A DNA stretch of 57,398 nucleotides, from assembly GCF_937873615.1 (NCBI RefSeq), contig NZ_CALMYP010000056.1, positions 1 through 57,398 of the forward strand, read 5' to 3'. The position numbers and the translations under genes were made by a program. Shown one piece after another: positions 11,397 through 40,590 of the stretch (positions are counted from its first letter, which is position 1; each line of letters opens with the position of its first letter). This DNA comes from an uncultured Paracoccus sp. (GTDB lineage Bacteria > Pseudomonadota > Alphaproteobacteria > Rhodobacterales > Rhodobacteraceae). The notes under the pieces were generated by a model. That model ran no database searches and was not told the DNA's origin. It was given only the letters and a program-made list of their open reading frames with translations.

Positions 11397-11436
11397 GACG
11401 GGCGGAAGGAGACTCTCTCCCACCCTGAAACCCGTC
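11397..11436 (-). promoter_or_regulatory. Structured mRNA leader (radC-like motif), copy A
   Basis: On the minus strand GACGGG ... CCCGTC forms the outer stem, and GGGAG-AGAGT-CTCCT forms an inner 5-bp hairpin (last pair G-U). The outer stem ends 14 nt before ATG 11382, next to the GGAG binding site. It is the same architecture as 28318-28356, 30199-30238 and 40550-40590. Confidence 0.65.
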
Positions 11437-11550
11437 ACAAAACCCCGAGCCCGGCTCTCCCTCCTGACGGGCGCCCGGCCTGAGACCGGGCACCTGACAG
11501 CAAATTAGCCCCCTGCCCTGCCCCGCCAACCAATGAAGCTCGACGGACAT

Positions 11551-12384
11551 TCATAGACGGCCATGGCGCGCTTCATCGATGACGAAGCCGAAGGGGCCAA
11601 CTTCGTAGTCCGCAGAAGGAATCAGAAAGTGACGCTCCTCGGCAGCCGGATCGCGCCGCCCGCCGCGCGTCGCAACGACCTCGGTGAAGCCGGGACGGTG
11701 ATCCGAATAGATCGCCGAGATCACGACCCAGTCGTCGGCGTGGAGCCGGGCGAAGGCCTCGGCATCGCGGGCGCGAGACTCGCCGGGGCGCAGCACCCGG
11801 TCGTGGATCGCCTCCCAGGCATCCGGCCAGCTGTGGCGCAAGGTTTCCTCGGCCTGCCGACGCTCAAGCGCCGTGAAGAGATCGGGCCAGGCCGTTGCAA
11901 CGGCAGCCCAGGCGGCGTCCTCTTCGTACCAACCGCCCGCCTCCCGCAGCAGGGGATGGACCCTCGCGTTTCGCTCGGGCGAGAGGTGGAACCCGCCATG
12001 ACCGGAGGTCGAGTGAAACGCGACGCCTTCGCCATAGCGGACCGCGCCTTGCGATCGCCCCCAGGGCGTGCTGGCATAGGCGCGGAATTCCTGCCGGCCG
12101 AGCGCGGCTTTTTCGGCCTGATGCTCGGCCTGTTCCTCGACGAAGGCGCGGAACGCGGCCTCGTCAGCGATGTCGCCGCCATGGCCGTAGAAGTCGGAGC
12201 GCTTCCACTCGACGAAGGGCCTGGACAGTCGCCAACCGCTGCCGAGGAAGTTCCCGCCATCCCGCTTGGGGAGCATGGCATAGGCGGCATCGCCGATCCG
12301 GGCGACCGTCAGGCCATCAGCACTCTGGCCGAATTCCGGGATGGGGAAGGAAGCGGAGGTGCGGGGTGCGACAGCGGTGCTCAT
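11551..12384 (-). CDS. DUF7007-domain protein
   Basis: A 277-aa protein. The central GHGGFHLSPERNARVHPLL, followed by REAGGWYEEDAAWAAVATAWPDL, is the signature I associate with DUF7007, a domain of plasmid-borne proteins in this bacterial group; the activity is unknown. The N-terminal 60 residues are less ordered. The C-terminal part has strand-rich DDWVVISAIYSDHRPGFTEV and ends near the membrane-free tail DEARHGRL. ATG 12384 overlaps the stop of the gene before it (ATGA), so translation is coupled. Confidence 0.75.
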   Translation of the reverse strand: MSTAVAPRTSASFPIPEFGQSADGLTVARIGDAAYAMLPKRDGGNFLGSGWRLSRPFVEWKRSDFYGHGGDIADEAAFRAFVEEQAEHQAEKAALGRQEFRAYASTPWGRSQGAVRYGEGVAFHSTSGHGGFHLSPERNARVHPLLREAGGWYEEDAAWAAVATAWPDLFTALERRQAEETLRHSWPDAWEAIHDRVLRPGESRARDAEAFARLHADDWVVISAIYSDHRPGFTEVVATRGGRRDPAAEERHFLIPSADYEVGPFGFVIDEARHGRL

Positions 12385-12818
12385 TGGACAAGCGCCTCCA
12401 CCGCGTCGATATCTTCGCCATTCAGCGCAGCGGTCAGCCATTCATGGGTGCTGATCCAGCCGATGCTCTTTCGGGCACCGAGGTCGATGACCTGCGCGCC
12501 ACCGCCGAAAGCCTCCAGCCGGGGACGCGAACAGGTGAATGAAGAGTCAAAACCCCAGAGGCCGGTCAGGTCGATCTCGGCGGCAAGGCGCAGCACGAAG
12601 GCGATGAGCCCTTCGACATCGCCCTGCCCGTCATCGTGGAACCAGAGGACCGAAGTTCCCGGGCCGTCCTGCAGCGCGATGGCGAAACCGGAATACTCCG
12701 GATCGTCGCTGCCCTCGTCTTCCGCGCAGAGACGGGCGTGCAGATCGAGCGCCTGGACGGCTTTCTCGGGCGTGCCCGCGTCCAGAACGCAGGAGAAGTG
12801 CGTGAAATAGTCAGCCAC
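12381..12818 (-). CDS. Conserved plasmid hypothetical protein (145 aa)
   Basis: The protein is acidic and soluble, with MADYFTHFSCVLDAGTPEKA at the start, SGFAIALQDGPGTSVLWFHD in the middle, and a helix IAFVLRLAAEIDLTGLWGF followed by SFTCSRPRLEAFGGGAQVID. A repeated theme of short strands and one long helix suggests an immunity- or ubiquitin-sized fold, but no family is recognised. It is coupled by ATGA overlap to the DUF7007 gene. A terminator for the preceding gene lies 30 nt upstream, so it probably has its own promoter. Confidence 0.7.
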   Translation of the reverse strand: MADYFTHFSCVLDAGTPEKAVQALDLHARLCAEDEGSDDPEYSGFAIALQDGPGTSVLWFHDDGQGDVEGLIAFVLRLAAEIDLTGLWGFDSSFTCSRPRLEAFGGGAQVIDLGARKSIGWISTHEWLTAALNGEDIDAVEALVQ

Positions 12819-12845
12819 GATGGGCTTCCTTTCAGAATGAAAAGA

Positions 12846-12866
12846 CCCGGGCGCCGATGGCCCGGG
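12846..12866 (-). terminator. Rho-independent terminator of the 68-aa gene
   Basis: On the minus strand CCCGGGC-(7 nt)-GCCCGGG is followed by TCTTTTCATT. It lies just after the stop codon at 12895 and closes the series DUF6878 / DUF6915 / 68-aa gene. Confidence 0.7.
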
Positions 12867-12894
12867 ATCGAGTTGGGGTTAGGGAAGAAAGTGG

Positions 12895-13101
12895 TCAGTT
12901 CGCTTCGGGGGGCTGCCGATGTTCGACGGCATTCCGCGCCGCGGCGTGGGCTTGCAGAAGTTCGCGGTAATAGCGCTTGCGCGCCTCACGCCAGCTGCGG
13001 ACAGCGAGCGTGTCAGGATGCAACCGCCGGATGGCAATGCGCAGAACCGCAAGGTTCGACAGCCCGGGCGGCAGGCCGAGGTTCAGATAGGCGCGGCTCA
13101 T
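12895..13101 (-). CDS. Small basic helical plasmid protein (68 aa)
   Basis: A 68-aa Arg-rich protein. MSRAYLNLGLPPGLSNLAVL is followed by AIRRLHPDTLAVRSWREARK and RYYRELLQAHAAARNAVEH. It starts 1 nt after the stop of the DUF6915 C-terminal fragment, so it was translated with the intact DUF6915 gene. The amphipathic basic helices could bind nucleic acid, but no family is recognised. It now depends on read-through from the transposon end or on an internal promoter. Confidence 0.65.
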   Translation of the reverse strand: MSRAYLNLGLPPGLSNLAVLRIAIRRLHPDTLAVRSWREARKRYYRELLQAHAAARNAVEHRQPPEAN

Positions 13102-13102
13102 G

Positions 13103-13336
13103 TCAGCTGATCTCCCGCACGGGGAGGACCAGATGCGGATCGACTTCGGCCTCGATCTTCTGCGTGCGGCCCATCCAGGGCTCAGCCCGGATCGAGCGCG
13201 CCCAGTCCGCGAAACTGGGAATGAAACCGAGGTCTTCCTTCACATGCTGCTCGCCGACCCAGCGGGTCGGGATCACCCGACCGGAGGACAGGGTCAGGGT
13301 CTTGCCGTGGATCTGCTCCAAGAGGAATATCCCTTC
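13103..13336 (-). pseudogene. DUF6915 gene, C-terminal fragment (interrupted)
   Basis: Reading inward from the transposon end, the minus strand encodes EGIFLLEQIHGKTLTL, SGRVIPTRWVGEQHVKEDLG, then FIPSFADWARSIRAEPWMGR. This is the C-terminal part of a DUF6915-type protein. Its missing N-terminus lies at 19517-19660. Joining the two at the shared GGCATG core restores a continuous 125-residue frame. A TTG at 13321 with GAAGGGA 8-9 nt upstream could still start a 72-aa fragment. The interruption is exact and recent-looking, since neither half carries other damage. Confidence 0.85.
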
Positions 13337-13342
13337 GGCATG
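13337..13342. repeat. GGCATG core duplication, right side of the transposon
   Basis: GGCATG here and at 19517-19522 flank the element in the same orientation. Removing the element plus one copy restores the DUF6915 frame, so this 6 bp is the probable crossover core or attachment site. Confidence 0.75.
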
Positions 13343-13498
13343 TTATCTGGACAGTCAAGTTGTCTCTTTTTGAAAACTTCCTGCCATCATTGGGGTTTTC
13401 CCGAGTGGCATCGGTGAGACAGTTCATTGGGGCTCCCTCTCTTCTCATCCCTGTTTCACCCCCACCCAGATCACCTCTTCCTCTCCCTGATCGCGAGC

Positions 13499-13936
13499 TC
13501 AGGTGCCAGCTCCGGACGGTGGCCTGAATGGCAGGACTTTCGGGTCAGCCCGCGCGATCTGCTCTTCAAGAACCGCGAGCAGGCGGCGTTGTTCTTCACC
13601 CTCAAGCGCGAGGATCTGAATTTGTTGCGCCAGTGTTTTGATGGTCGCGCGCAGCTCGGCCATCTCGCCACTGCGTGCGGCCCGGAGGTCGGCTTCGAGT
13701 TCGCGGATACGCTCCTTCAAGCCCGCGACAGATCCCGACCGGAACCGCGCTTCCGCCGCACGAAATTCCGCGAGAACGGCGGTGGCCCGGTTGGCCGTTG
13801 CGCGGCTGACACCGGCCTCGCGTGCGAGATTGGCGACGGTGAGGCACCCGTCGGTATGGACGGAGGTTCCTTCGAGCAGTCGCATCATGGCGGCGCGCAA
13901 GGCGTCTTCGGTCTTCTGACTGACGGGCCGTGTCAT
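13499..13936 (-). CDS. DUF6262/TnpC-like transposon accessory protein
   Basis: A 145-aa protein. The N-terminal half carries a helix-turn-helix (LTVANLAREAGVSRATANR) and the C-terminal half is a coiled coil (about residues 70-125, with LKERIRELEADLRAARSGEM). This matches the small HTH-plus-coiled-coil protein (DUF6262, TnpC of Tn554) found at the end of tyrosine-recombinase transposon operons, where it is thought to assist or orient transposition. Its ATG overlaps the stop of the third recombinase (ATGA at 13933-13936). Confidence 0.8.
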   Translation of the reverse strand: MTRPVSQKTEDALRAAMMRLLEGTSVHTDGCLTVANLAREAGVSRATANRATAVLAEFRAAEARFRSGSVAGLKERIRELEADLRAARSGEMAELRATIKTLAQQIQILALEGEEQRRLLAVLEEQIARADPKVLPFRPPSGAGT

Positions 13937-19670: not shown

Positions 19671-20165
19671 TCAGAAATCATGGGTGAAGAGTTCGGACGA
19701 CGTGAACCGCTCGTTGAACTCGAGATGGATCGACCGGGCGCGGGCGTCGATGCAGAATTCGCCATAGGCGCCGTCGTTGTTTTCCCAGCCGCCGTGGGTG
19801 TCGGAGAGAAGGTCGTAGACCAGGTCTTCGACGGCTGCCTCCAGCGTCAGGCGGTGCTCGATGGGCGTCCTCGTCTGCCAGTCGATCCCGGCGAAAATGA
19901 TCTGTGCGGCCGGAAGGCTGACGTGATGATCGGCATCATTGCGGGCATCGATGCTTTCGATCTGGCCGCTGTCGCCCGAGCCATCGAAACTGACGAGGAC
20001 ATGGGCGATGCCGGCAAGGCGCAGCCCGTCGAAGAGCACTTCCTTGTTCTGCGCGCGAAGCGTCATCTCCAAGGCGCTACGCTCGGCCTGTTCGGCCATG
20101 AACCGCGCCAGATCGGGCGCGATCTCGACCGGGGCCGCAGCGCGGCCGGGAAGGTGGATGGTCAT
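19671..20165 (-). CDS. DUF6878 family protein
   Basis: A 164-aa plasmid protein of unknown role. The family pattern is clear in VLVSFDGSGDSGQIESIDA, in LTLEAAVEDLVYDLLSDTHG followed by GWENNDGAYGEF, and in the C-terminal FNERFTSSELFTHDF. ATG 20165 (MTIHLPGR) is the conventional family start. A GC-rich hairpin (AGCCCGCC/GGCGGGCT) lies upstream and a GGAGATC binding site precedes the start. It heads the row of plasmid hypotheticals interrupted by the transposon. Confidence 0.8.
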   Translation of the reverse strand: MTIHLPGRAAAPVEIAPDLARFMAEQAERSALEMTLRAQNKEVLFDGLRLAGIAHVLVSFDGSGDSGQIESIDARNDADHHVSLPAAQIIFAGIDWQTRTPIEHRLTLEAAVEDLVYDLLSDTHGGWENNDGAYGEFCIDARARSIHLEFNERFTSSELFTHDF

Positions 20166-20307
20166 GTCTGGATCTCCGGGAGAGGGTGGAAGAGGGATAA
20201 GCCCGCCGCCGCTCTCTCTTTCCCCGGCGGGCTCCCCCTGCCCGCTCCCTTCTCGACCTCTCCCTTGCCGGACCCTTCGGTTCGGCACCGCTGCCCCCGA
20301 AAGGGGG

Positions 20308-22738: not shown

Positions 22739-22768
22739 TACTTCTGAAGAGAAATGCATCAGAGCTTC

Positions 22769-22792
22769 GGCCCCGGTCATTTGACCGGGGCC
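22769..22792 (+). terminator. Rho-independent terminator after hipA
   Basis: GGCCCCGGTC-ATTT-GACCGGGGCC followed by TTCTGCTTT. It separates hipA from the convergent second DUF736 gene. The stem is the same as at 8019-8042. Confidence 0.75.
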
Positions 22793-22802
22793 TTCTGCTT
22801 TG

Positions 22803-23509
22803 GCGATCAGTCGCCGCGGCGGGTGTTGGGGCGGGACCAGATGAGGCTCGCGCCCTCGCCGTCTTCGTCATCGAAGAGGTTGGCGTAGATCGGGGCGGCA
22901 AAGCTCGGATCGTCGAGCTTCAGGCCCAGGTATTCGCGGCCCTCGTTCGATTTCTTCGTCCAGGCGGCGCCGATCTCGGCGCGACCGACCAGGACCCGGT
23001 GCGAGGGCGCGTTCTCGCCCGAAGCGCGCAGGTCGGGGACGAGGCGCACACCCTTGGCCTGCAGGCTGAGGGTGAAGATTTCGCCGGTGTATTCGGTGCC
23101 GGTCTTCTTGAAGGTGCCGATGGTCGCCATGATCTTTCTCCGTTTTCTCTCTGTTTCGGGCCCGCGTCCTTGCGGCCTCGATGGCGATCGAAGAGCCCGG
23201 AGGCGACCGATGGCGCACCCCCTCCAAGGGGGCTGGACAGCACAGGAGGAATTTTCTTGCCTCGCGAGGAATGACGGTGCCAACCCTCGGGGCCCCCATG
23301 CGACCTGTCGCATGGGGTGGGGGTCCGGCAGGGGAAGAAAGTTGTGACGACGCTGTTGCGCCAAAGCGGTCGAGGCGAAGACGTCCTTCGGGCAGATCAG
23401 CCCATCACCAGAGGCCGTTTGGACGCGGGCTGGGACAGAGGGGGAGAGGAGATCAAGGCGACCCTGAAGGCCTGTCAGGAAAGACAGGACAGACACCTCA
23501 GGCGATTTG
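22803..23509. repeat. 707-bp direct repeat, copy 2
   Basis: Identical to 8053-8759. It includes DUF736 copy 2, its upstream region and the 24-bp dyad (23294-23317). Sequence diverges immediately at both ends. Confidence 0.9.
22807..23130 (-). CDS. DUF736 family protein, copy 2
   Basis: Encodes a 107-aa protein identical to the one at 8057-8380. The same start, binding site and upstream region are present because the gene lies in the duplicated 707-bp block. The lack of any synonymous difference shows the duplication or gene conversion is recent. The neighbour on the 3' side is the convergent hipBA operon with its terminator; on the 5' side about 770 bp without a gene precede the MarR gene. 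Confidence 0.9.
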   Translation of the reverse strand: MATIGTFKKTGTEYTGEIFTLSLQAKGVRLVPDLRASGENAPSHRVLVGRAEIGAAWTKKSNEGREYLGLKLDDPSFAAPIYANLFDDEDGEGASLIWSRPNTRRGD

Positions 23510-26155: not shown

Positions 26156-28303
26156 TCATTCCGCGGCGATCAGGTCTTGCCGCTCGTCTTCCTCATCGGC
26201 CTGCGGATCGTCGTCCGCCGTCAGGAAAGCAGGCAGGTCATCGCTGGTACCTTCCGTCACGGCTGCACCCTCCGCATCCGGATCATCCATCCGCAGCGGT
26301 TCGGGCAGCCAACCGGAGCCATCCAGGAGCCGTTCGGCCTCCCGCGCCATGTCGCCCTTCTTCAGATGGTCGATCAGCTGTGCCGCACCCTCGCCCACGC
26401 CTTCGCGCACCGCCTCCAGGATCCGGCTCTTGGTGACGCGGCCGAGGTAGTTGGCGACGGTCGGCCTCCAGCCTGCTTCGACCATGTCGAGCCGGGTGGT
26501 CCGCGCAAGGCGGTCAGCCTCGCGCAGGCGGCGGTCGAGGCCTTGCTGGCTTAGCCCCATGCCGCTGTAGGGGTTCGGACGCTCGTAAAGCGCGGTCACC
26601 CCGAAGCTGAGGCAATGGGCGAGGAGCGACTGACGGCTGGCTTCATCCAGTGCATGCAGCCAGTCCCAGATCACGTCATCCCCCTGCCCCAGGGGCATGT
26701 CCGCGCGCCAGCCAGCGTGCCGGGCGTCGATGTTCTGGGCAGGATAGCTGTCGGCCAGGTCAGCGGCCTGCACCGGCAGGTGAATGTCGCGCACCGACGC
26801 TTCGACGGCTGCACCGGAACTGCGGCTGCCGAAGCAATCCAGCACCAGCTTGTGCAGAAGCGCCGTCATCGCGATGCGCGGATTGTTCGCCACCGCGTCG
26901 CGCAGGGCCAGGGTGCGGTGCGCGGTCAGTTCGATGACAAGCCGCTCGGGCAAGGGCTTGATGCCGTCGCCTTCCTCCTCATCCTCCTCGGTCACTCGCG
27001 GCTCACCAGTGACGCTGATCTGGGTGACATGCGCGGGGCGGTGATCGCTGTCGGCATCGTCGGCATCATCCCCTTGAAGGGAAGAGGGGCCGCCGTGCTG
27101 GCCTTCGGGGGCCGCCCGCACCTCGTCCTCGGGCCGCACGAACCCGCGCTCGACGAGCAGACTGCCGTCACTGTCGATGCTGACGAAGGCCCCTGCCCTG
27201 CCGACCTGATCCGGGTCGAAGGCCATCGGGCGGCTGTCGAAGGCATCGAGGCCGCGCTCGATCTCGCCAAGGCGATGGTCGACCTCGTCGGGCAGTTCCT
27301 CGGCCTCGCCATATTCCGCTTCCAGACGGTCGTATTCGTCGCGCAGCGCCTCGCGGGTGGCCCGCTCCTCGTCAGTCAGATCGATCGTGGTGCCCAGAAG
27401 GTCGCGAAGGCCCATCCTGTGTCCATAGGGGAAGCCAACGGCGACCTCGATCCACTTCCATCCCTCGCCGGCGATGGCTTCGGCCTCAAGCTTCAGCTTC
27501 TCGCCCACCAGCCGTTCGAGCAATACCGGATCCTGCAGCCAGCCACCGTCGTCCTGCTGGAAGAGGTCACGCAGGACGAAACCACCGGCCGCCTCATAGG
27601 CATCGAGCCCCAGGAAACGGGCGCGCTTGTCGGAGGCCCGCACTGCGGTCTCGGTCAGCATCCGGCGGATCTGGTAGGGTTCCTTGGACCAGGAGTTCCG
27701 GACCGCGTCCCAGACCTGCTCCTGCCGCGCATGATCGCCCGAAACGGTGAAGGCCATTAGCTGTTCCAGGGTCATGCCATCCTCGGCGTAGGCCTCGAGA
27801 AGCGACGGTGCGACCGAGACCAGGCGCAGACGCTGCTTCACGACCTTCACATCGACGAAGAAGGCCGCCGCGATGACCTCCTCGGTCATGCCCTTCTCGC
27901 GCATGGCCTGGAAGGCGCGGAACTGGTCGAGTGGATGCAATGGCGCGCGCTCGATGTTTTCCGCAAGCGAAAGCTCGTCGATCAGCACCGAGTCATCGGC
28001 GGCGCTGACGATGCAGGGCACCGGCGCAGTCTTGGCGAGGCGCTTCTGCTTGACCAGCAGTTCCAGCGCCCGGTAACGGCGGCCACCCGCCGGAACTTCA
28101 AAGGTGCCGGTATCCGCACCATCCTCGCCCAAGACAGGGCGGACATGCAGGCTCTGGATCAGGCCGCGGCGGGCGATCGACTCGGCCAGTTCATCGACCG
28201 AGACCCCGGCCTTCACACGTCGGACGTTGGACTGGCTCAGCACCAGCTTGTTGAACGGGATGTCCCGCGAGGACGCGAGGGTGATTTTCTGCATATTGGT
28301 CAT
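26156..28303 (-). CDS. Large ParB/RepB/Spo0J-family plasmid protein, paralog 1
   Basis: A 715-aa protein. The N-terminal ParB/Srx fold has DIPFNKLVLSQSNVRRVKAG, SVDELAESIARRGLIQSL, the nucleotide-contacting PAGGRRYRALELL and ENIERAPLHPLDQFRAF, followed by an HTH around EEVIAAAFFVDVKVVKQRL. The remaining 500 residues are acidic and not recognised. It is a close paralog of 38364-40535. Unlike RepB it has no ParA partner, so classical segregation is doubtful. Such large ParB-like proteins are common beside DUF932 and RadC on these plasmids. ATG 28303 is set by the structured leader 14 nt upstream. A strong terminator ends the unit. Confidence 0.85.
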   Translation of the reverse strand: MTNMQKITLASSRDIPFNKLVLSQSNVRRVKAGVSVDELAESIARRGLIQSLHVRPVLGEDGADTGTFEVPAGGRRYRALELLVKQKRLAKTAPVPCIVSAADDSVLIDELSLAENIERAPLHPLDQFRAFQAMREKGMTEEVIAAAFFVDVKVVKQRLRLVSVAPSLLEAYAEDGMTLEQLMAFTVSGDHARQEQVWDAVRNSWSKEPYQIRRMLTETAVRASDKRARFLGLDAYEAAGGFVLRDLFQQDDGGWLQDPVLLERLVGEKLKLEAEAIAGEGWKWIEVAVGFPYGHRMGLRDLLGTTIDLTDEERATREALRDEYDRLEAEYGEAEELPDEVDHRLGEIERGLDAFDSRPMAFDPDQVGRAGAFVSIDSDGSLLVERGFVRPEDEVRAAPEGQHGGPSSLQGDDADDADSDHRPAHVTQISVTGEPRVTEEDEEEGDGIKPLPERLVIELTAHRTLALRDAVANNPRIAMTALLHKLVLDCFGSRSSGAAVEASVRDIHLPVQAADLADSYPAQNIDARHAGWRADMPLGQGDDVIWDWLHALDEASRQSLLAHCLSFGVTALYERPNPYSGMGLSQQGLDRRLREADRLARTTRLDMVEAGWRPTVANYLGRVTKSRILEAVREGVGEGAAQLIDHLKKGDMAREAERLLDGSGWLPEPLRMDDPDAEGAAVTEGTSDDLPAFLTADDDPQADEEDERQDLIAAE

Positions 28304-28317
28304 CGGACCGATCTCCC

Positions 28318-28356
28318 GACGGGTCCCGAGAGCCTCTCTCTCGGTCCAAACCCGTC
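28318..28356 (-). promoter_or_regulatory. Structured mRNA leader (radC-like motif), copy B
   Basis: Minus strand: GACGGG/CCCGTC outer stem and GAGAG-AGAGG-CTCTC inner hairpin, ending 14 nt before ATG 28303, with GGGAGA as binding site. Relative to copies C and D the inner stem changes on both sides. Confidence 0.7.
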
Positions 28357-28415
28357 GAAAACCCCCTGCCCTTCTTTCCCTCTCTGACCCGCCCGGACCG
28401 CACGCCGACGGGCGG

Positions 28416-28859
28416 TCATTCGAGATCACCCCGACCGCGCAGGCTGACCTCCCGGCCCGCGCCGGTGATGATGTGGTCGTGCAAGACCAGGCCGAGCGCA
28501 GCGCATGCCTTCTGCACCTCCTTCGTCATGGCAATGTCGGCATCCGACGGCTCAGGATCACCCGACGGGTGGTTGTGGATCAGGATCAGGGCGCTGGCGT
28601 TCAGCATCAGCGCCCGCTTTATCACCTCACGCGGATAGACCGGGACATGGTCAACCGTGCCGGTCGAGAGAAGCTCATCGGAGATGATGCGGTTCTTGCG
28701 GTCGAGGTAGAGCACGTGGAACCGCTCGATGGGGCCGCGGACGGTCAGCGCGCAATAGTCCATCAGCGCCTGCCAACTGCCGATGACCGGGTTCTGGCTG
28801 AGGTATCGGCCGAGGATGTCGCGGGCTTCGAGGACGATGGTTTCTTCCTGGGGGGTCAT
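28416..28859 (-). CDS. radC: RadC-like JAB/MPN-domain protein
   Basis: A 147-aa protein consisting of a RadC/JAB domain. The JAMM zinc motif is complete: LIHNHPSGDPEPSDAD gives His-x-His-Pro, Ser and Asp at about residues 95-108. The upstream part has ARDILGRYLSQNPVIGSW and FHVLYLDRKNRIISDELLST, typical of the family. RadC-like genes are frequent on mobile elements; the old DNA-repair role has been withdrawn and the true substrate is unknown. ATG 28859 follows a bulged stem-loop leader. The gene lies between the ParB-like and DUF932 genes on the same strand. Confidence 0.88.
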   Translation of the reverse strand: MTPQEETIVLEARDILGRYLSQNPVIGSWQALMDYCALTVRGPIERFHVLYLDRKNRIISDELLSTGTVDHVPVYPREVIKRALMLNASALILIHNHPSGDPEPSDADIAMTKEVQKACAALGLVLHDHIITGAGREVSLRGRGDLE

Positions 28860-28872
28860 GGGTGTCTCGCTG

Positions 28873-28928
28873 AAATGCGCAGGCCAAAGCCCCCCGCCCT
28901 CTCGGGGCGGGGCCACTGGCCTGCATTT
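28873..28928 (-). promoter_or_regulatory. Bulged stem-loop leader of the RadC gene
   Basis: AAATGC-GC-AGGCCA pairs with TGGCCTGCATTT (12 bp, 2-nt bulge) and encloses a GC-rich hairpin with a CGAGA-type loop. It ends about 14 nt before ATG 28859. The geometry is similar to copies A-D, but the sequence is different. Confidence 0.5.
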
Positions 28929-28984: not shown

Positions 28985-30184
28985 TCAGCCGACCCGGTCG
29001 AGGAGCTTCTTGGCGCGCCCCTCCATGTCGAGGCGGGCATCCTGCTGGGTCTTGTCGCGCGCAAGCCGCGTGATGCCCTGCACGAAGTCGAAGATGCTCT
29101 CGGGCGGGCGGCCCTCTTCCATCAGCACTTTCTCGATGATCTTGCCCGACTCCGCCTTCGAGAAGCCGCGCTTGCGCAGGAAGTCATCCCTGTCCTCGTC
29201 CGTCCGCGCGACGATCTGTTGCCGCGCCGCCTTGATGCCGTTCACGAAGCCCTGCGGCGAGGAATTGGCAAACCGCGTCAGCGCCGGGGAGGCCTCATGG
29301 GCGAAGCGCGAGGCGGCATATTTCGAATGCCGGATCCGGATTTCCTGAAAATCCTCGACGCCCCATAGATTCCTGTTTTGACACACGGCCCGCAGGTAGA
29401 AGCTCGCCATGCCGAGGGTCTTCGCGCCCACCTCGGAATTCCAGCAGTAGAAGCCCCGGAAGTAGAGGTCGGGGGAGCCGTCGGGCATACGACCCGCCTC
29501 GATGGGGTTGTGATCATCGACCAGGAACAGGAAGACATCGCGGTCCGAGGCATAGAGCGTGGTCGTGTCGCGGCTGATCTCGACATCGGGGTTGTAGACC
29601 CCGGTCGACCAGTCGAGCACGCCCGGCACCTTCCAACGCGTGTCGCCGGTACCATTGCCCGCGATCCGCTGTACCGCCTCGACCAGTTCATGGTCGTGGA
29701 TACGGCCATACTCGGGGCCAGTCACCGCGCGCAGTTCGGTGCGGCCATCTTCCGTCTCGAAGGTCTTCACCTGCTCAGCGCGGTGGTTGGTCAGACCGTA
29801 TTGCAGGTTGATGCCCGCCAGTGGCGCGGGCAACTGCCGAAGGTAGGAGGCCGGTGCGCCGACGATGCTGGCCAACTGGCCAAAAGCCCAATGCGTGGGT
29901 GCGACCGGTTCATGTGCCTTCGGCAGCATCAGATGCAACCGCTCGGGGTTGTCGCGTGCGGCCTCGACGCGGATGTCGGCGGTCTGCACCACCCGGCTAC
30001 GGCTGCGTTCGGAGCGGCTCTTCACATTGGCCCAGAGATCGTCGAGCGACAGATACCGCTCGTCATCCGGCCGGTTGAACCATTCGGACGACACCCGCCC
30101 ATTCCGCTCACCCCGGCTCACGTCCACTTTCCAGCCACCCGTCCGCGTAGGTGTGACCGGATCCAAAACTTCCACAACGCCCAT
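28985..30184 (-). CDS. DUF932 (phage/plasmid-like) protein
   Basis: A 399-aa protein of the DUF932 family, found on plasmids and phages; the biochemical role is not established. Family features include the early LMLPKAHEPVAPTHWAFGQL, YLRQLPAPLAGINLQYGLTN, LRAVTGPEYGRIHDHELVE and VFLFLVDDHNPIEAG. It ends in a Lys/Arg-rich tail (ARLDMEGRAKKLLDRVG). The start at ATG 30184 is fixed by the leader hairpin at 30199-30238. It is upstream of radC on the same strand, separated by another GC hairpin (around 28940-28970). Confidence 0.85.
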   Translation of the reverse strand: MGVVEVLDPVTPTRTGGWKVDVSRGERNGRVSSEWFNRPDDERYLSLDDLWANVKSRSERSRSRVVQTADIRVEAARDNPERLHLMLPKAHEPVAPTHWAFGQLASIVGAPASYLRQLPAPLAGINLQYGLTNHRAEQVKTFETEDGRTELRAVTGPEYGRIHDHELVEAVQRIAGNGTGDTRWKVPGVLDWSTGVYNPDVEISRDTTTLYASDRDVFLFLVDDHNPIEAGRMPDGSPDLYFRGFYCWNSEVGAKTLGMASFYLRAVCQNRNLWGVEDFQEIRIRHSKYAASRFAHEASPALTRFANSSPQGFVNGIKAARQQIVARTDEDRDDFLRKRGFSKAESGKIIEKVLMEEGRPPESIFDFVQGITRLARDKTQQDARLDMEGRAKKLLDRVG

Positions 30185-30198
30185 CGGCTATCTCCCGT

Positions 30199-30238
30199 GA
30201 CAGGCGCCGGGAGCCACTCTCCCAGCCTTTAACCTGTC
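30199..30238 (-). promoter_or_regulatory. Structured mRNA leader (radC-like motif), copy C
   Basis: Minus strand: GACAGG/CCTGTC outer stem, where both sides differ from the GACGGG/CCCGTC of the other copies, and GGGAG-AGTGG-CTCCC inner hairpin. Exactly 14 nt to ATG 30184, with GGGAGA between. Confidence 0.7.
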
Positions 30239-30419
30239 GCGAAAGCAACCAGCCTTTCTCTCACTCTTCAAAAGAAGCACGAGCGTCGGCAATGCGGGAC
30301 GAAGCGGGCGCTCGCTGCGATTGCGCCATCGCCGAATTTCCTACCCAGATTCGGTTGTGACAGCGCAGTAAGGGTCCATATCTAGATGTGCGTGGGAATC
30401 TCAGACTTAGGGGTGAAGG

Positions 30420-32734: not shown

Positions 32735-33039
32735 AGGCTTGACCTACACGATCGGCCCAAGGCGGACATTGATACCGAGTGCGAGAAATGCTTTGAACAG
32801 TCAAACCCGCCCTTCGAAACGTTTGGCGAGTTTCAGTTGGCTGACCACCACCAGTCCGATATCGCCCCCGAAGTTCCTTCGTACTTTGCTGGTACTATCA
32901 CGTTTCCACTGGGAAGAACGACATCCCTGCGGTAATCACTGACTTGAGCGAAGCAGGAGATACGACCGCCGCACACTTCAATGCGCACCTTTCAAGGGCC
33001 TTGACGGCGTCGCCGAAAGCAACAGTCGGGGGAAACGGC
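32735..33039 (+). other. Coding-like remnant between the H-NS gene and TrlF
   Basis: Immediately after the H-NS stop a 66-codon frame without a start codon runs to TAA at 32933-32935, with a C-x-x-C (ECEKCF) and PEVPSYFAG. The TrlF frame is also open from 32845 and reads WYYHVSTGKNDIPAVI. Switching between the two frames would give one plausible protein segment, so this may be a frameshifted gene relic. No family is recognised. Confidence 0.3.
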
Positions 33040-36000
33040 GTGACCGGAAGCAAATGGCCGCGGGGTGCGGAGTGGCGGAAGTGGGACCTGCATGTCCACA
33101 GCCCTGCATCGCACGGGTTTACTGGCGACTATAACCAGTTCATCATCCAGCTCGGCAACGCCGATTGCGACGTGATCGGCATCAATGACTATTTCTCGGT
33201 CGCGGGCTACCGCGAAGTAGTCCACCGGCTGGCCAATCCGGCTGGCGACACGGAAGGCAACGCAGCCTACCGCGACGCCTTGGAAAAGCTGCGCAGGAAG
33301 ATTCTGCTGCCGGTTGTCGAGTGCCGCATGACGAATGTGCTGATGAATAAGCAGGGCAAGGGCGGTCAGCGTCTAAACTTCCACCTGATATTCGACCCGG
33401 CACTCGAGCCGGAAGATATCGAGACGTTCCTCAAGAATCAGCAGGCAGGCGGCAGCTCGATCGGGGCACGCTATGCCAGCAGCGAGTTCCTGCTGAGCGT
33501 GCAGGTAGATTTCAACGAAATCCTGAAGAAGCTGCGCACGGACGGCAGCTTCCGCGGCCGGTATCTCGTCTGGCTGCCCTATGACGAATATGGCGGCATA
33601 GACAACATCGACCCGAATACCGATGTGATGCTCAAGCAGCACCTGATCCGCGACGCGGATATCCTGGGGTCGGCCAACAAGGCGCAGGCCGACTTCTTTC
33701 TATGGAAGAACCCCAAATATAGCGAAGCTTCCTACCGCGAGTGGTTCGGAAACCGGAAGCCATGCGTCAAGGGCAGCGACTCCCACAACGTCAACGACGA
33801 GCTCGGCAAGCTGAAGGACCAAGACTCCAGGCCGACCGACAAGTATTGCTGGATCAAGGCCGACCCGACCTTCGCCGGACTGCGCCAGATCATCAACGAG
33901 CCGGAGGACCGCGTCTATATCGGCCGCATCCCGCCCAAGCTCGAAGAGGTGCGCGGCAATGCCACGCGGTTCATAGACCGGCTTCACATCCGAAAAATCG
34001 CCGACGCCGAAACTGCTGATACTTGGTTCGACAGCGAACTGCCGCTCAACTCCGACATGGTCGCCATCATCGGTAACAAGGGCAGCGGCAAGAGTGCGCT
34101 CGCCGACATCCTCGCGCTCGCCGGCAACACGCACTGCGACCCGGTGCATTTCTCGTTCCTCGTCAAGGACCGATTCTGCGAGCGTAGCGGGAAGCTCGCC
34201 AAGCAGTTTACGGTCCGCCCTGTCTGGGCCGACGGCACGGAAACAGCGCTGCCGTTGAACGCGAAGCCCGATACCACCGGCGTCGAGCGGGTGCGCTACA
34301 TTCCGCAGACCTATCTAGAGAAGGTCTGCACCGAGACGGAGCCCGGCCAGCAGAGCGAATTCCAGGCCGAGCTGCGCAAGGTCATCTTCTCCCATATCAG
34401 CGACGCCGACCGGCTCGGTCAGCAGTCGCTCGACGAGCTGATCGAATACAAGACCGAGGAACTGAAGGGACAGATCGACAACGCGCGGCGCGAGATCGAG
34501 CGCGTAAACGGCGAGCTTGTGCGCCTCGAAGAAAAGGCGACGCCTGCCTACGCCGCTCGGATCGAGGCGCTGCTGCGCCAGAAGCAGCAAGAACTGAAGG
34601 CGCACAAGGAGATCGAGCCGGCGAAGGTCGAGCAGCCGGGCGAAGTCAGCCCCGAACAAAAGGCCGCTTACGACGTCATTGCGGAAAAACTCGCCGGCGA
34701 GCGTACCACGCTCAACCGGATCGACGCGGAGACGGCGGAGAAGACGCAGCGGCAGAAGACGCTGACGGAAAAGATCGCGCTCGCCCGGAAGGTCGAGGGC
34801 AAAATCGACAATTTCGAAAGCGAGTACGCCCGTCTCAACCGCGAGACCGCCCCCGATCTCGAAAAGCTCGGATTGTCGCTTTCCGCCCTGGTCTCCATTA
34901 CTGTCGATAAGACGGTCCTTACGACCGCGCGTGATAAGCTCATTGACGAAAAGACGCTCGTCGATACCGCGCTGGATGATGTCGGCGCCGGCAGCCTTCC
35001 TGCGCAGAAGGCGGCGTGCCTGCAACGTATAGCCGGGCTTCAGGGGCAACTCGATGCGCCAAACAAGCGCTTTCAGGAGTACAACGAGGCGCTCCGGGCC
35101 TGGCAGGAGAAAGGACTTCTGATCGAGGGCGCCGCTGACAAGCCTGACACGCTGAAGGGTTATGAAGCGCAGCTGTCCTACCTCAAGACCGGCCTTCCCG
35201 ACGATATAGAGAAGCTGCGCGTGCAGCGCCGGGAGATCGCTCGCGGCATCCACAAATGCGTCGCCGCGATCCGCGACGCGTACAAGGAGCTGTTCTCTGC
35301 GGTGCAGGAGCTGATCGGCTCCAGCGTCGTTATCAAAGAAGGATTCAAGCTCACGTTCGAGAGCACCATCATCGAGCGTAACCTCGAAGGCGACCTATTC
35401 GACAAATTCGTTTCAACGGGCGTCGCCGGCTCGTTCTACCGCAAGGAAAAGGGCACGGCGCTCGAAGAAATCCGCGCGGATTTTGACGTCAACGACGAAG
35501 ACGATGCGCTCGCCTATGTCGAGAAGATCATCGCTCATCTAGAACGCGATATGCGTACGGTGCAGCAGACGCCCACAGGCATCGCCGGCCAGCTACGCAA
35601 GAATGTCGAAGTGAAGGCGCTCTACGATTTTCTGTGGAGTCTCGGTTACCTTGAGCCGGAGTATTCGCTGAAGCTAGACGGCAAGGACCTCAGCCACCTC
35701 TCGCCCGGCGAACGCGGTACGCTCTTGCTGGTCTTCTACCTGCTGGTCGATAAGAGCAACAAGCCGATCATCGTCGATCAACCGGAAGAAAATCTCGACA
35801 GTCAGACAGTGTATCGGCTGCTGATTCCGGTCATCAAGGATGTGAAAAAGCGCCGTCAGATCATCATGGTGACGCACAGCCCTAATATTGCTGTGGTCTG
35901 TGATGCGGAGCAGATCATTCACGCCCATATCGACCGCGCGGCGGGCAATGCGGTCATCTATACGATGGGCGCCATCGAGTCGCCCGCCATCAACCGCTTC

Positions 36001-36066
36001 CTCGTCGATGTCCTAGAAGGCACACGGCCCGCTTTCGACAATCGCGACGCCAAGTATTTCGTGTGA
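33040..36066 (+). CDS. TrlF-family PHP-SMC ATPase/phosphoesterase
   Basis: About 1008 aa. The N-terminal PHP domain has its metal ligands: WDLHVHSP (His 18, 20), VVECRMTN (Glu 94), NFHLIF (His 115) and KGSDSHN (Asp 247, His 249). An SMC/ABC-type ATPase follows: Walker A IIGNKGSGKSAL (about 343-354), a long coiled coil (about 455-770), signature HLSPGERGTLLL (about 886), Walker B KPIIVDQPEENLDS (about 909) and H-loop MVTHSPNIAV. GTG 33040 is preferred, just ahead of the conserved WPRGAEWRKWDLH; a TTG at 32944 would add 32 residues. PHP-SMC proteins are recurrent in defence islands. Twelve nt downstream is a DUF2971 gene, likely its partner. Confidence 0.85.
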   Translation: MTGSKWPRGAEWRKWDLHVHSPASHGFTGDYNQFIIQLGNADCDVIGINDYFSVAGYREVVHRLANPAGDTEGNAAYRDALEKLRRKILLPVVECRMTNVLMNKQGKGGQRLNFHLIFDPALEPEDIETFLKNQQAGGSSIGARYASSEFLLSVQVDFNEILKKLRTDGSFRGRYLVWLPYDEYGGIDNIDPNTDVMLKQHLIRDADILGSANKAQADFFLWKNPKYSEASYREWFGNRKPCVKGSDSHNVNDELGKLKDQDSRPTDKYCWIKADPTFAGLRQIINEPEDRVYIGRIPPKLEEVRGNATRFIDRLHIRKIADAETADTWFDSELPLNSDMVAIIGNKGSGKSALADILALAGNTHCDPVHFSFLVKDRFCERSGKLAKQFTVRPVWADGTETALPLNAKPDTTGVERVRYIPQTYLEKVCTETEPGQQSEFQAELRKVIFSHISDADRLGQQSLDELIEYKTEELKGQIDNARREIERVNGELVRLEEKATPAYAARIEALLRQKQQELKAHKEIEPAKVEQPGEVSPEQKAAYDVIAEKLAGERTTLNRIDAETAEKTQRQKTLTEKIALARKVEGKIDNFESEYARLNRETAPDLEKLGLSLSALVSITVDKTVLTTARDKLIDEKTLVDTALDDVGAGSLPAQKAACLQRIAGLQGQLDAPNKRFQEYNEALRAWQEKGLLIEGAADKPDTLKGYEAQLSYLKTGLPDDIEKLRVQRREIARGIHKCVAAIRDAYKELFSAVQELIGSSVVIKEGFKLTFESTIIERNLEGDLFDKFVSTGVAGSFYRKEKGTALEEIRADFDVNDEDDALAYVEKIIAHLERDMRTVQQTPTGIAGQLRKNVEVKALYDFLWSLGYLEPEYSLKLDGKDLSHLSPGERGTLLLVFYLLVDKSNKPIIVDQPEENLDSQTVYRLLIPVIKDVKKRRQIIMVTHSPNIAVVCDAEQIIHAHIDRAAGNAVIYTMGAIESPAINRFLVDVLEGTRPAFDNRDAKYFV

Positions 36067-37402: not shown

Positions 37403-37412
37403 CTGTTTGGCT

Positions 37413-37521
37413 CCTGTCTTGGAGGCGGGGGACCATCCCCCGCGCGACAGGACCCCGCAGGCCCGAAGACTGGCTGACATCACCGGGTGCGTTCGGCTTG
37501 CCCGAATCCACCCGGCGGCAC
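37413..37521 (-). promoter_or_regulatory. Conserved structured leader of mini-protein paralog 2
   Basis: Near the start (37413-37451) CCTGTC/GACAGG encloses GCGGGGG-AUGGU-CCCCCGC. Upstream (37487-37521) GTGC/GCAC encloses TTCGG-GCAAG-CCGAA. Compared with 20500-20627 the loop AUGGU is constant while stem lengths and pairs change. The remainder to 37790 holds no gene that I can see. Confidence 0.65.
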
Positions 37522-37790
37522 GGGCTTGCCCGTAGTCCGACCCCTCGCGGGTTGATCTCGAAGACAGGATTCGGGGCAAGGAAGGGAATGGCGAGCGGGG
37601 GATGGTGCCCCAACGTCAGGAGCCGGTTGTCCCGCTCATGCTTGGAACGCCGCCAGCCTCCCGGGCAGGCTGTTGGTTGAAGACCTCCGTCTGTGGTGAT
37701 GGATCCTTTGGCGCCCCGCGGCATCGCGGGACGAGGGTATGATTGGTGAGAGGCCTGCCCTTCAGAAGGCCCCTCATGCATTGTCAGGGC

Positions 37791-38264
37791 TCAGGCGGCC
37801 AGGTCTGCGCCCCCTGCCCTCTCGCCGTCCTCGGCACCGACGATATCGAGCCTCGCGTTGCGATAGCCTTCCCGTGCAATCCAAAGCTCGGCCGCAGTGA
37901 TGGATTCCGCCAGATGCAGCAACTCGGTGTTTCCACCGAAGTCCAGAAGTACGCGGACCTGCCCGGGCTTCGGTTCCTCGGCCACCTCAAAGATCAGACG
38001 GCTATCCGCCGAATGGCTGCGCATGATGGTGACGAGAATGACCCCGTCCGAGGAGAAGTTGCCCTCATGCAGCGTGAAGGAGGCCGGAGCCGTCCAGGTG
38101 GGATAGACCCGCGGCAGTACCTTCTTCACGAGGCGGCCGACGCCGTTCGATCGCTCCCAGGCCGCGAGCTTCTTCGTGAAACGTGCCGGCGGTCTGGGAC
38201 TGCCGTCGGTGTAGCGGATCAGCGCCCCCAAAGGGGCCGAGTCGATGATGTTTGTTGCAGACAT
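37791..38264 (-). CDS. Conserved plasmid hypothetical protein (157 aa)
   Basis: A 157-aa soluble protein starting at ATG 38264. The N-terminal APLGALIRYTDGSPRPPARF and KKLAAWERSNGVGRLVKK are followed by a beta-rich half (ASFTLHEGNFSSDGVILVTI, QVRVLLDFGGNTELLHLA) and an Ala-rich tail. I recall similar proteins beside large ParB-like genes on Rhodobacterales plasmids, but no function is known. A stem-loop or operator (38278-38297) and an AT-rich stretch precede it, so it probably has its own promoter and is not simply read from the ParB-like gene upstream. Confidence 0.7.
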   Translation of the reverse strand: MSATNIIDSAPLGALIRYTDGSPRPPARFTKKLAAWERSNGVGRLVKKVLPRVYPTWTAPASFTLHEGNFSSDGVILVTIMRSHSADSRLIFEVAEEPKPGQVRVLLDFGGNTELLHLAESITAAELWIAREGYRNARLDIVGAEDGERAGGADLAA

Positions 38265-38277
38265 GATTCCTCATCCC

Positions 38278-38297
38278 GAATGCGAGAATTCGCATTC
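38278..38297. promoter_or_regulatory. Inverted repeat before the 157-aa gene
   Basis: GAATGCGA-GAAT-TCGCATTC, 8-bp perfect arms, 13 bp from the start codon, next to an AT-rich stretch (38298-38330). It could be an operator or an mRNA hairpin that affects translation. Confidence 0.4.
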
Positions 38298-38363
38298 ATC
38301 ATATTGATATTGTTGTATATTGTGAGAGTGAGGGCGAGTTTCCTCGCCCCCGGATGGCTCAGA

Positions 38364-40535
38364 TCACTCCGCCGCCATCATCGATGCATCGCCGTCGGGC
38401 AGATCAGCCGTCAGGAAAGCCGGGAGATCGATGTCGTCGGGCTCACCCGCGTCCTCCCCCTGCCCTTCCGCGATCGCCTCACCATCGCGTGCCGCCAGAT
38501 CGGCCCGGCGCAGGACCTCGGGCAGCCAGCCGCTGCCCTTCAGAAGTCGCTCGGCCTCGGTCGCCATCTCGCCTTTCTTGAGGTGATCGAGAAGCTGCGC
38601 GGTCCCCTCCCCCTTTGCCTCGCGTACGGCTTCGAGGATCCGTGCCTTGGGCACACGGTTGAGATAGGCATCAACCGTGGGCTCCCAGCCCGCCTCGACC
38701 ATGTCGAGATCGAGCGCGCGCGCCACGAGATCGGCGTGCGCCATGCGGCGGGTCAATCCAGTGGCCGAAATGCCAGCCCCATAGGGGTTCACCTTCTCAT
38801 GAAGCGCGTTGACCCCGAAGCTGAGGCAATGCGCAAGAAGAGCGAGACGACTGCCTTGATCGAGCGCGGCCAGATAGTCCCAGAGGGCGGCATCGTCGCC
38901 GAGGGGCAGATCGGCCTCCCAGGCTGCGTGACGCTCGTCGACCAGCTTCGCCACCACACTGTCCTTCAGGTCCGGTGCCTGCGCCGACATGTAGACGTGA
39001 CGCACCGAAGCCTCGAGACAACTGCCAGTGGCCGAGGAGGTGCGGAAGGTATCCGTCACCAACTTCAGGAGCAGGAGCGTCAGCGCGACGTCCGGCGACC
39101 GCCCGATGGCCTCACGCAGCGCGAGGGTCCGGTGGGCAGTCAGTTCCATGACCAGCCGCTCGGGCAACGGCTTCAGCGCACCGTCATCTTCCTCATCGGA
39201 CGCATCCGCCCCGATCGGCTGCCCCCCCGAAGTGATGACGGTGCACCCGGCGGAGGTCGCCGACAGTTTCCAACTGGAACCGCCGACATCACCCCCCTGC
39301 CCCATGGCATCCACACCATCGCCATCCTGGACCGCGGTCTCCTCGTGCGGCTCGTCCTCTGGCCGAACGTACCCACGATAGATCGCAAGACTGCCATCCC
39401 GATCCAGCGTCACGAAGACGCCCGCGCGCGCAATCTCGGTCGGGTCGTAGATCAGAGGCCGCTGTTCGAGCGCTTCCATCGCCATCTCGAGTTGACCCAG
39501 CCGGGCATCGATTTCCTCGGGGTACTCGTCCTGGCCGGAGTATTCCTCCTCCAGCTCGCGGTACTCGGCGAGGAGCACAGCGTGGGCAGCGCTTTCCTCC
39601 TCGGTCATCGGTGCCGGGTCACCGGCCAGGCGCCGCAGACCATGGCTGTAGCCATAGGGCAGGTCGGTCGCGACCTCGATCCACTTCCAGCCCTCGGAGG
39701 CCAGCGCCTCGGCTTCGGCCTGGAGCTTCTCGGAGACCAGCCGATCGAGCAGGGCAGGGTCCTCAAGCCAACCACCGTCATCGCCCTGAAACAGATCGCG
39801 CAGCACGACACCGCCTGCCGCCTCATAGGCATCGAAACCCACGAAGACCGCACGGCGATCCGAGGCCCTGATCGAGGTCTCCGTCAGCATGCGCCGGATC
39901 GCATAGGGCTCCTTGTTCCAGGAGTTCTTCACCGTATCCCAGACCTGCTCCTGACGCGCATGGTCCGGGTTCACGGTGAAGGCCATCAGCTGTTCCAACG
40001 TCATGCCGTCCTCGGCATAGACCCCGAGCAGGGCAGGGGCCACAGAGGCGAGCTTCAGACGCTGCTTGACGATCTGCGGCGTCACGAAGAAGGCCGCGGC
40101 GATCGCTTCTTCACTCTGACCCTTCTCGCGCAAGGCCACGAAGGCGCGGAATTGGTCCAGCGGGTGCAGAGCGACGCGCTGCATGTTCTCTGCCAGCGAG
40201 TCGTCCTCGGCCAGAATGTCGGACGCAGCATCCCGCACGATGCAGGGGATCGGCGCGGTCTTCGCCAGTCGCTTTTGCTTCACCAAGAGCGACAGCGCCT
40301 GGAAACGACGACCGCCGGCGGGGATCTCGAACGTGCCGGTTTCGACCCCGTCGGCATCAAGCACGGGCCGGACGTTCAAGCCCTGCAGCAGGCCGCGCCG
40401 GGCGATGTCCTCGGCCAGTTCCTCGACCGATACGCCGGCCTTGATGCGCCGCACGTTGGACTGGCTCAGCACGAGCTTGCCGAAGGGGATGTCCCGCGAC
40501 GGGGACAGGGTGACTTTCTGGGCTGCTTTCGTCAT
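38364..40535 (-). CDS. Large ParB/RepB/Spo0J-family plasmid protein, paralog 2
   Basis: A 723-aa paralog of 26156-28303. It shares DIPFGKLVLSQSNVRRIKAG, SVEELAEDIARRGLLQGLNV, PAGGRRFQALSLLVKQKRLA and ENMQRVALHPLDQFRAFVAL, then the helix-turn-helix around EEAIAAAFFVTPQIVKQRL. The long acidic C-terminal region is similar in outline but diverged, and ends LPAFLTADLPDGDASMMAAE (paralog 1 ends in a related way). No ParA neighbour is present. The protein may bind or load on DNA in a CTP-dependent way like ParB, but this is inference from the fold. Its leader 40550-40590 belongs to the same RNA motif as paralog 1. Confidence 0.85.
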   Translation of the reverse strand: MTKAAQKVTLSPSRDIPFGKLVLSQSNVRRIKAGVSVEELAEDIARRGLLQGLNVRPVLDADGVETGTFEIPAGGRRFQALSLLVKQKRLAKTAPIPCIVRDAASDILAEDDSLAENMQRVALHPLDQFRAFVALREKGQSEEAIAAAFFVTPQIVKQRLKLASVAPALLGVYAEDGMTLEQLMAFTVNPDHARQEQVWDTVKNSWNKEPYAIRRMLTETSIRASDRRAVFVGFDAYEAAGGVVLRDLFQGDDGGWLEDPALLDRLVSEKLQAEAEALASEGWKWIEVATDLPYGYSHGLRRLAGDPAPMTEEESAAHAVLLAEYRELEEEYSGQDEYPEEIDARLGQLEMAMEALEQRPLIYDPTEIARAGVFVTLDRDGSLAIYRGYVRPEDEPHEETAVQDGDGVDAMGQGGDVGGSSWKLSATSAGCTVITSGGQPIGADASDEEDDGALKPLPERLVMELTAHRTLALREAIGRSPDVALTLLLLKLVTDTFRTSSATGSCLEASVRHVYMSAQAPDLKDSVVAKLVDERHAAWEADLPLGDDAALWDYLAALDQGSRLALLAHCLSFGVNALHEKVNPYGAGISATGLTRRMAHADLVARALDLDMVEAGWEPTVDAYLNRVPKARILEAVREAKGEGTAQLLDHLKKGEMATEAERLLKGSGWLPEVLRRADLAARDGEAIAEGQGEDAGEPDDIDLPAFLTADLPDGDASMMAAE

Positions 40536-40549
40536 CAGATCTTCTCCAC

Positions 40550-40590
40550 GACGGGCGTCGGAAGCCACTCTTCCGATCTCACTTCCCGTC
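40550..40590 (-). promoter_or_regulatory. Structured mRNA leader (radC-like motif), copy D
   Basis: Minus strand: GACGGG/CCCGTC outer stem, GGAAG-AGTGG-CTTCC inner hairpin, 14 nt to ATG 40535, with TGGAGA as binding site. Against copy C the middle G-C pair of the inner stem is A-T here. Confidence 0.7.

Follow-up and report, generated by a model that had tools for sequence, protein, structure and literature searches.

Two classes of structured RNA leader before candidate establishment genes of alphaproteobacterial plasmids

A contig of 57,398 nucleotides (nt) from an uncultured Paracoccus sp. (NCBI RefSeq assembly GCF_937873615.1, NZ_CALMYP010000056.1; hereafter the window, which is contig C56 of a 3.86-Mb assembly of 74 contigs) raises the question of why four of its genes are preceded by the same nested hairpin at the same distance from the start codon. 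A reading of the sequence alone had taken these hairpins for a shared RNA regulon of plasmid establishment that resembles the radC RNA motif. The hairpins were found to belong to a large family of leaders, here termed type I, whose structure is kept by compensatory changes in the mRNA-sense strand at a fixed spot before the Shine-Dalgarno (SD) sequence and the ATG. A second, longer class (type II) stands beside it, and the two classes together precede seven gene families. Of the six leaders in the window, every one on the minus strand, four are of type I and two of type II; they are listed here with their scores in two covariance models, R2 (which includes an upstream AGAGNNAGAG element) and R3 (type II).

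9612-9710, minus strand: long-hairpin leader (type II) before the antirestriction gene; R3 score 65 bits (training row).
11380-11468, minus strand: leader (type I) before the 187-aa gene, with AGAG-type element, nested hairpin (11397-11436), SD and ATG; R2 score 79.4 bits (training row).
20163-20265, minus strand: leader (type II) before the DUF6878 gene; R3 score 71.5 bits (training row).
28301-28387, minus strand: leader (type I) before ParB-like gene 1, with its hairpin at 28318-28356; R2 score 66.2 bits (training row).
30182-30271, minus strand: leader (type I) before the DUF932 gene, with its hairpin at 30199-30238; R2 score 78 bits (training row).
40533-40622, minus strand: leader (type I) before ParB-like gene 2, with its hairpin at 40550-40590; R2 score 76.2 bits (training row).

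The four type I hairpins were present on the minus strand where the sequence-only reading had placed them, with the outer stem GAC(G/A)GG/CC(C/T)GTC and the inner hairpin, and the distance of 14 nt from the 3′ arm to the ATG held in all four. ParB-like genes 1 and 2 are paralogous, with 73-79% identity at the DNA level where they align, and their hairpins alone are therefore not independent. A simple letter pattern gave four matches in the whole genome, all of them the window hairpins, but is weak proof because a reversed control pattern matched three times. A genome-wide search with a first covariance model, R1, returned the four window copies as the only strong matches (next best E 0.28).

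Model R1 was built from 11 copies. Five annotated relatives, fetched by protein similarity, served as seeds, and a scan for nested hairpins before an SD and an ATG gave chance matches and eight clear copies, the latter in front of ParB-like, DUF932, ArdC or 187-aa family genes; seven scan copies were combined with the four of the window, and copy L026:15227 was excluded because MAFFT placed it off by one. R1 found more copies within the same fetched loci. Across 87 fetched sources (1.12 Mb) a total of 141 matches was obtained at E ≤ 4.3e-5 and none from there to 0.01; the sources partly overlap and the matches correspond to 125 distinct rows. The covariance-model search that had been proposed as a check on the hairpins thus yielded a large family with a clean score gap. 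R1 matches were listed in 28 out of 385 genomes of a class sample and 66 out of 295 genomes of a family sample (both E ≤ 0.001), and in 38 out of 398 genomes of a phylum sample (E ≤ 0.01), the source genome being counted each time; in searches of more than 40 genomes the filters were stricter, at the cost of weak matches, and the counts are of matches listed. A spread beyond the class was considered and rejected, the three matches at E 0.0018-0.0099 among 398 genomes being taken as noise. Divergent ParB-like genes (32-37% identity, L241-L249) gave nothing over 12 bits with all filters off; at one of them (L246) a 10.9-bit match (E 0.17) ended at the ATG of the gene. Two loci, L217 (filed under Cyclobacteriaceae) and L188 (Enemella), carry DUF932 genes 95-96% identical to that of the window, and their contigs are probably misbinned or contaminant.

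Pairing is maintained across this family. Among the first 11 copies 98.6% of cells paired. In a model-fitted alignment of the 125 distinct copies the share was 97.3%, with both-side changes in 12 out of 13 pairs (137 cells; 0 out of 500 shuffles), against 31-64% in slid controls. An alignment of 50 diverse copies made with plain MAFFT (42 of 46 non-redundant rows plus eight added, four odd or weak rows having been dropped by hand) gave 95.3% paired cells and both-side changes in 12 out of 15 pairs (80 cells; 0 out of 500 shuffles), against 38-50% in slid controls. The compensatory changes first seen in both stems of the four window copies are borne out by both alignments, and the sequence-only reading, which had staked itself in part on covariation in a wider alignment, came through on that count. 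The outer stem covaries in its own right, with variants such as GGCGGA/TCCGCC, GACGGC/GCCGTC and GACGAG/CTCGTC, and RNAalifold lengthened it by two pairs, up to the SD sequence GGAG. Among cells that are not Watson-Crick pairs on the coding strand, G·T outnumbered A·C by 147 to 20 (47 to 7 in 46 rows less than 80% alike), an excess that argues for selection in the mRNA sense; the model search may have some preference for G·U, but the matches are well clear of the threshold. A covarying mRNA-sense structure at the ribosome site of several genes, by which cis-regulatory mRNA leaders are generally recognized, was therefore found here. Understood as a covarying structure before several unrelated plasmid genes, the proposed shared RNA regulon is strongly supported by the wide alignments and the strand asymmetry.

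Position and certain letters are conserved as well. The 3′ arm ends 13-15 nt before the ATG in 119 of the 125 distinct copies and GGAG lies 7-10 nt before it in 108, figures in which the ATG position is partly built in because the seed scan filtered for SD and ATG and the models include the ATG. The inner loop reads AGAGG, AGTGG or AGAGT in 109 out of 125. In a set of 116 rows (141 matches reduced to 139 distinct ones, from which rows with short flanks or more than 70% alike were removed) the distance from the start of the AGAGNNAGAG element to the outer stem downstream of it is 27-29 nt in 111 rows; when the best-fitting of about 25 positions is taken, at least 7 of the element's 8 fixed letters match in 112. 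In type I the conserved stretch opens about 28 nt ahead of the outer stem, and conservation weakens upstream of the element. A general upstream stem around this AGAG element was kept out of the family definition as not general: 50 out of 116 rows had a helix with 5 bp or more and score 12, and 24 reached a score of at least 16. Some signal was present, the flank complementarity averaging 13.1 against 11.6 with shuffled partners (maximum of 200 shuffles 12.5). No constant frame that would indicate a leader peptide before the hairpin was seen by eye in the upstream sequences.

Weak matches of R2 proved to be the longer leader of type II; the one at 9612-9710 of the window first surfaced in this way (21.9 bits, while outside the R2 training set). 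Model R3 was built from nineteen type II copies and found 36 type II leaders at E ≤ 5.1e-5, the training copies among them. With type I they have in common the AGAGNNAGAG element, a GAGAG-rich loop and the place at the ATG. In these 36, the best of 107 R3 matches, the share of paired cells was 83.4% (shuffles 73.5%, maximum 76.5), 46 cells had changed on both sides against 16 (maximum 29), and G·T again exceeded A·C (90 vs 22). Among the 71 further matches of R3 (E 6e-4 to 0.1), 68 were type I leaders at their exact places; since R3 was trained on type II only, the two classes have signals in common. The other three were window 13388-13488 (25.5 bits), which was dropped as a leader as the next reading frame has only 11 aa, and weak type II leaders at an SNase-family gene and a similar-looking gene without Pfam match (L128:10604-11125, L117:10462-10950).

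The 141 type I leaders precede ParB-like genes (70), DUF932 genes (29), ArdC genes (26), the 187-aa family (7) and others or truncated frames (9). The 36 type II leaders precede about 22 strawberry-notch helicase genes, seven DUF6878 genes, six antirestriction genes and one other, assigned by Pfam for four genes and by annotation or a similar protein start for the remainder. For gene context, ArdC is treated in PMC7213743 and polyvalent proteins in PMC5512222. By hand count the leader stood at the ATG in all 78 DUF932 loci with upstream DNA (80 fetched), 71 of which fit a stricter outer-stem letter pattern, and a Bradyrhizobium plasmid also has the leader before DUF932. Leaders lay on a single strand in 48 out of 48 fetched loci with at least two of them. 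On Sinorhizobium (S.) meliloti pSymA, an Agrobacterium plasmid and Paracoccus pAMI8 the leader cluster faces a gap beside relaxase or mobC genes, an orientation as expected for leading regions; it was judged from the relaxase or mobC genes rather than from a mapped oriT, and pCHQ1 and pRLG203 gave no decision. Over another 118 kb from four of these plasmids R2 found no type I leader, and R3 found one type II leader, at a place seen before (L026:41334). The establishment role that had been proposed for the hairpins fits the gene list, the clustering and the site beside relaxase genes, and to this extent it is supported by context.

The genes behind the window leaders, together with two neighbors, are the following.

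9192-9614, minus strand: antirestriction protein (PF03230), 140 aa; Pfam E 3.6e-33.
10819-11382, minus strand: 187-aa protein; without Pfam or NCBIfam match.
19674-20165, minus strand: DUF6878 protein, 164 aa; E 4.3e-47.
26156-28303, minus strand: ParB_N protein, 715 aa (ParB-like gene 1); by domain search.
28416-28916, minus strand: RadC-like JAB protein, between the DUF932 gene and ParB-like gene 1.
28985-30184, minus strand: DUF932-like protein, 399 aa; weak Pfam match (E 0.00044, below gathering score).
38364-40535, minus strand: ParB_N protein, 723 aa (ParB-like gene 2); directly downstream of repC.
40704-44237: repABC, plasmid replication genes.

The genes that the sequence-only reading had named behind the four hairpins were recovered as the 187-aa protein and the two ParB_N proteins, and as DUF932 by a match below the gathering score only. 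A relative of the 187-aa protein on Paracoccus pAMI8 (48% identity) carries the same leader. Neither R2 nor R3 found a leader belonging to the RadC-like JAB gene itself. Several further observations were made in the same genome. Contig C22 (36962-46441) carries three diverged leaders (43.6, 26.9 and 24.9 bits), of which those of 24.9 and 43.6 bits flank a ParB-like homologue (38% identity) on either side. Two DUF736 genes of the window (8015-8314 and 22765-23064) have 300 nt in common (97% identity), with repeated stretches upstream of both and near 25.9-26.1 kb. Among the leader genes, but on the opposite strand (32944-36066, plus strand), lies the gene of a 1040-aa protein that matches AAA_21 (AbiEii-like) and, below threshold, SMC_N. 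The palindrome CTTAACAGCTGTTAAG lies at about 40647-40662, between repC and the ParB-like leader, and 16-bp palindromes occur at a similar place in several other leader copies; we take them to resemble the parS sites of repABC plasmids.

The likeness to the radC RNA motif was confined to the company of genes. Sequence and fold are different: the radC RNA (RF01754) has 149 positions in several successive side-by-side hairpins and contains no GACGGG/CCCGTC nested hairpin. Both are candidate cis-regulatory RNAs of proteobacteria, and the neighbors of the radC RNA are presumably antirestriction and DNA-handling genes, just as the leaders precede ArdC, antirestriction, ParB-like and helicase genes. 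The radC model (gathering score 40 bits) gave no match in the window at E ≤ 1 and none in the four hairpin loci at E ≤ 10. It exceeded its cut-off in 2 out of 200 genomes of a separate sample from the phylum, both outside this class; sub-threshold matches (E ≤ 1) in 37 out of 61 genomes, none over the cut-off, were taken as noise, as 4 out of 14 control genomes had them too. Identity of the leaders with the radC RNA is excluded by the absent matches and the different architecture. Table 1 of PMC2864571 lists radC with the taxa Proteobacteria. A search of the window against Rfam 15 (E ≤ 1) matched no leader, its sole match being the antisense RNA ctRNA_p42d elsewhere (42048-42092, plus strand; 29.4 bits, gathering score 50), in the repB-repC gap on the other strand. 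On L114, L116 and L133 Rfam 15 gave one match, far from its gathering score, and none on leaders; on the four hairpin loci at E ≤ 1 it gave, beyond ctRNA_p42d, two matches (E 0.74 and 0.87) far below their gathering scores.

Two known systems are close in setting. EGeRS1 of the pLS20-family Bacillus plasmids, the closest precedent, is described in PMC8708921 as repeated conserved structured regions upstream of the ribosome-binding site of establishment operons including ardC, of unknown mechanism and not thought to be a single-stranded DNA promoter. A conserved structure directly before the ribosome-binding site of establishment genes, ardC among them, is common to both, but by that description EGeRS1 is Gram-positive and has 400-600 bp with several branches or inverted repeats, whereas the leaders here are alphaproteobacterial, carry a fixed hairpin and, at about 85-105 nt, fall short of that length. 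Autogenous ribosomal-protein leaders of the S15 type (PMC4137082) are likewise small leader structures, read by a protein that sets translation start; unlike them, the present leaders have several unrelated targets, and none of the downstream genes seen codes for a ribosomal protein. Searches of the open-licence literature (subscription papers and supplements being outside the scope) listed no description of the leader element, and the two cis-acting RNA leader classes are real, widespread and apparently undescribed.

What the leaders do is, in our judgment, more likely than not a matter of regulation: type I and type II would together form a family of structured 5′ leaders controlling the translation start of establishment and anti-defence genes on alphaproteobacterial plasmids and integrated elements. 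When the sequences between the AGAG element and a point 12 nt past the ATG were folded (114 of the 116 rows taken, 112 measurable), the mean predicted probability was 0.78 that the SD is paired and 0.73 that it pairs with the linker before the outer stem, the latter exceeding 0.5 in 87 out of 112. With upstream parts swapped the two values were 0.71 and 0.64 (highest of 12 rounds 0.73 and 0.67), and with linkers shuffled 0.54 and 0.34 (8 rounds). In most type I leaders the TTTTCCGT-like linker is thus predicted to pair with GCGGAGAA, which would bury the SD in an extended stem and give a default-low state. Such burial is likely in most type I leaders on these models; as a mechanism common to all leaders it is not established. 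The AGAG letters are common to two folds, which suggests a common reader. A putative trans-acting factor, either an RNA-binding protein or a small RNA, may read the AGAGNNAGAG element and the AGAG loop and set ribosome entry, so that the leader genes would be expressed together, most likely in a burst on entry of the DNA into a new cell and at a low level later; we infer this switch mechanism. One version, put forward tentatively and with more doubt than belief, is translational zygotic induction in alphaproteobacterial plasmids and integrative and conjugative elements: an RNA-binding factor of the donor would shut both AGAG leader classes, the factor-free recipient would translate establishment and anti-defence mRNAs at once, and repression would return as the factor builds up.

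Apart from the built-in share of the ATG position, several results weigh against regulation by a common leader family. SD burial is not general: SD-linker pairing is predicted at 0.95, 0.99 and 0.64 for three window copies and at 0.01 for the fourth (40533-40592), and at 0.00 and 0.06 for L025:3693 and L026:35030, while the mean probability of a paired SD in type II is only 0.45 (35 of 36 measured). The SD extension covaries weakly (71.7% paired vs 69.7% shuffled, 37 out of 500 shuffles; covariation score 12 out of 500; pair types 317 out of 500). Type II covariation is the weaker one, its 11 both-side pairs being equalled by some shuffles. A DUF932 gene (72-73% identity) stands without a leader on Agrobacterium, S. 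meliloti and R. leguminosarum plasmids; the ParB-like gene retains its leader on two of these, and none is annotated in the stretch of the third. On contigs G485:C8 and G606:C1 from the family sample listing, copies about 2.5 and 24 kb apart at most occupy both strands, and the one-strand rule is therefore not absolute.

Two candidates for the regulator were rejected, as neither occurs in all leader-positive genomes. DUF736 was present in 33 out of 40 leader-positive and 7 out of 39 leader-negative genomes, the latter chosen from listed rows of the class, family and phylum samples and not at random. A ParB-like relative (below E 1e-50) was present in 35 out of 40 and 0 out of 39, respectively, an association that is partly circular because the leader precedes that gene; remote ParB-like relatives (E 1e-31 to 1e-40) occur in 8 of the 39 leader-negative genomes.

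Leaders that act constitutively, fixing the state of the ribosome site or shielding the 5′ end of the mRNA without any regulator, would account for the conservation of structure by itself and for an outer stem that stops right before the SD, and no regulator is known. The AGAG element and the loop letters are, however, kept across genes and genera and in two different folds, which points to specific recognition, and we regard a constitutive role as unlikely, if still to be reckoned with. The hairpins might instead be single-stranded DNA elements (Frpo/ssi-like) acting on the strand that enters during conjugation. Their gene company and orientation resemble leading regions, and Frpo promoters are conserved hairpins before leading-region genes such as those for SSB and anti-defence (PMC11541004); those are DNA promoters with -35 and -10 elements, whereas the leaders here are mRNA-sense hairpins at the ribosome site. 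A place 13-15 nt before the ATG and abutting the SD suits an mRNA leader and not a promoter, and nested stems of 6-8 and 7 bp seem too short to mimic one (a judgment, -35 and -10 not having been searched for). The G·T cells of the coding strand, 147 against 20 A·C, would turn into A·C mismatches if the entering strand had the template sense, an argument that lapses if the entering strand is the coding strand, as reported for pLS20 (PMC8708921). Taken together, a single-stranded DNA element is improbable.

Inverted repeats near gene starts can also be operators, and parS-like palindromes do occur farther upstream of some copies, but strand asymmetry and compensatory changes in nested stems are unsuited to a double-strand binding site; a transcription attenuator is contradicted by the 3′ arm, which is followed by the SD and not by a U run. 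DNA operators or attenuators are accordingly very improbable. The similarity might finally be a functionless carry-over of one upstream region by gene duplication and cassette shuffling, given that the window ParB-like genes are paralogues and that close relatives bear close copies. Unrelated genes bear the leader, however, many copies differ on both sides of a stem and still pair, and the stretch between the AGAG element and the hairpin has diverged, so that we give this explanation scarcely any credence.

Leading-region genes help to decide whether a plasmid survives its entry into a cell, and to our knowledge the way in which they are jointly switched on outside the F-type plasmids is largely open. 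For regulation at the leader, a common element read in the mRNA would offer a handle on the joint control of establishment genes, and it would predict a regulator that reads the AGAG signals. The leaders mark candidate establishment genes of alphaproteobacterial plasmids, including DUF932, DUF6878 and the 187-aa family, and their covariance models may serve as finders of candidate anti-defence genes.

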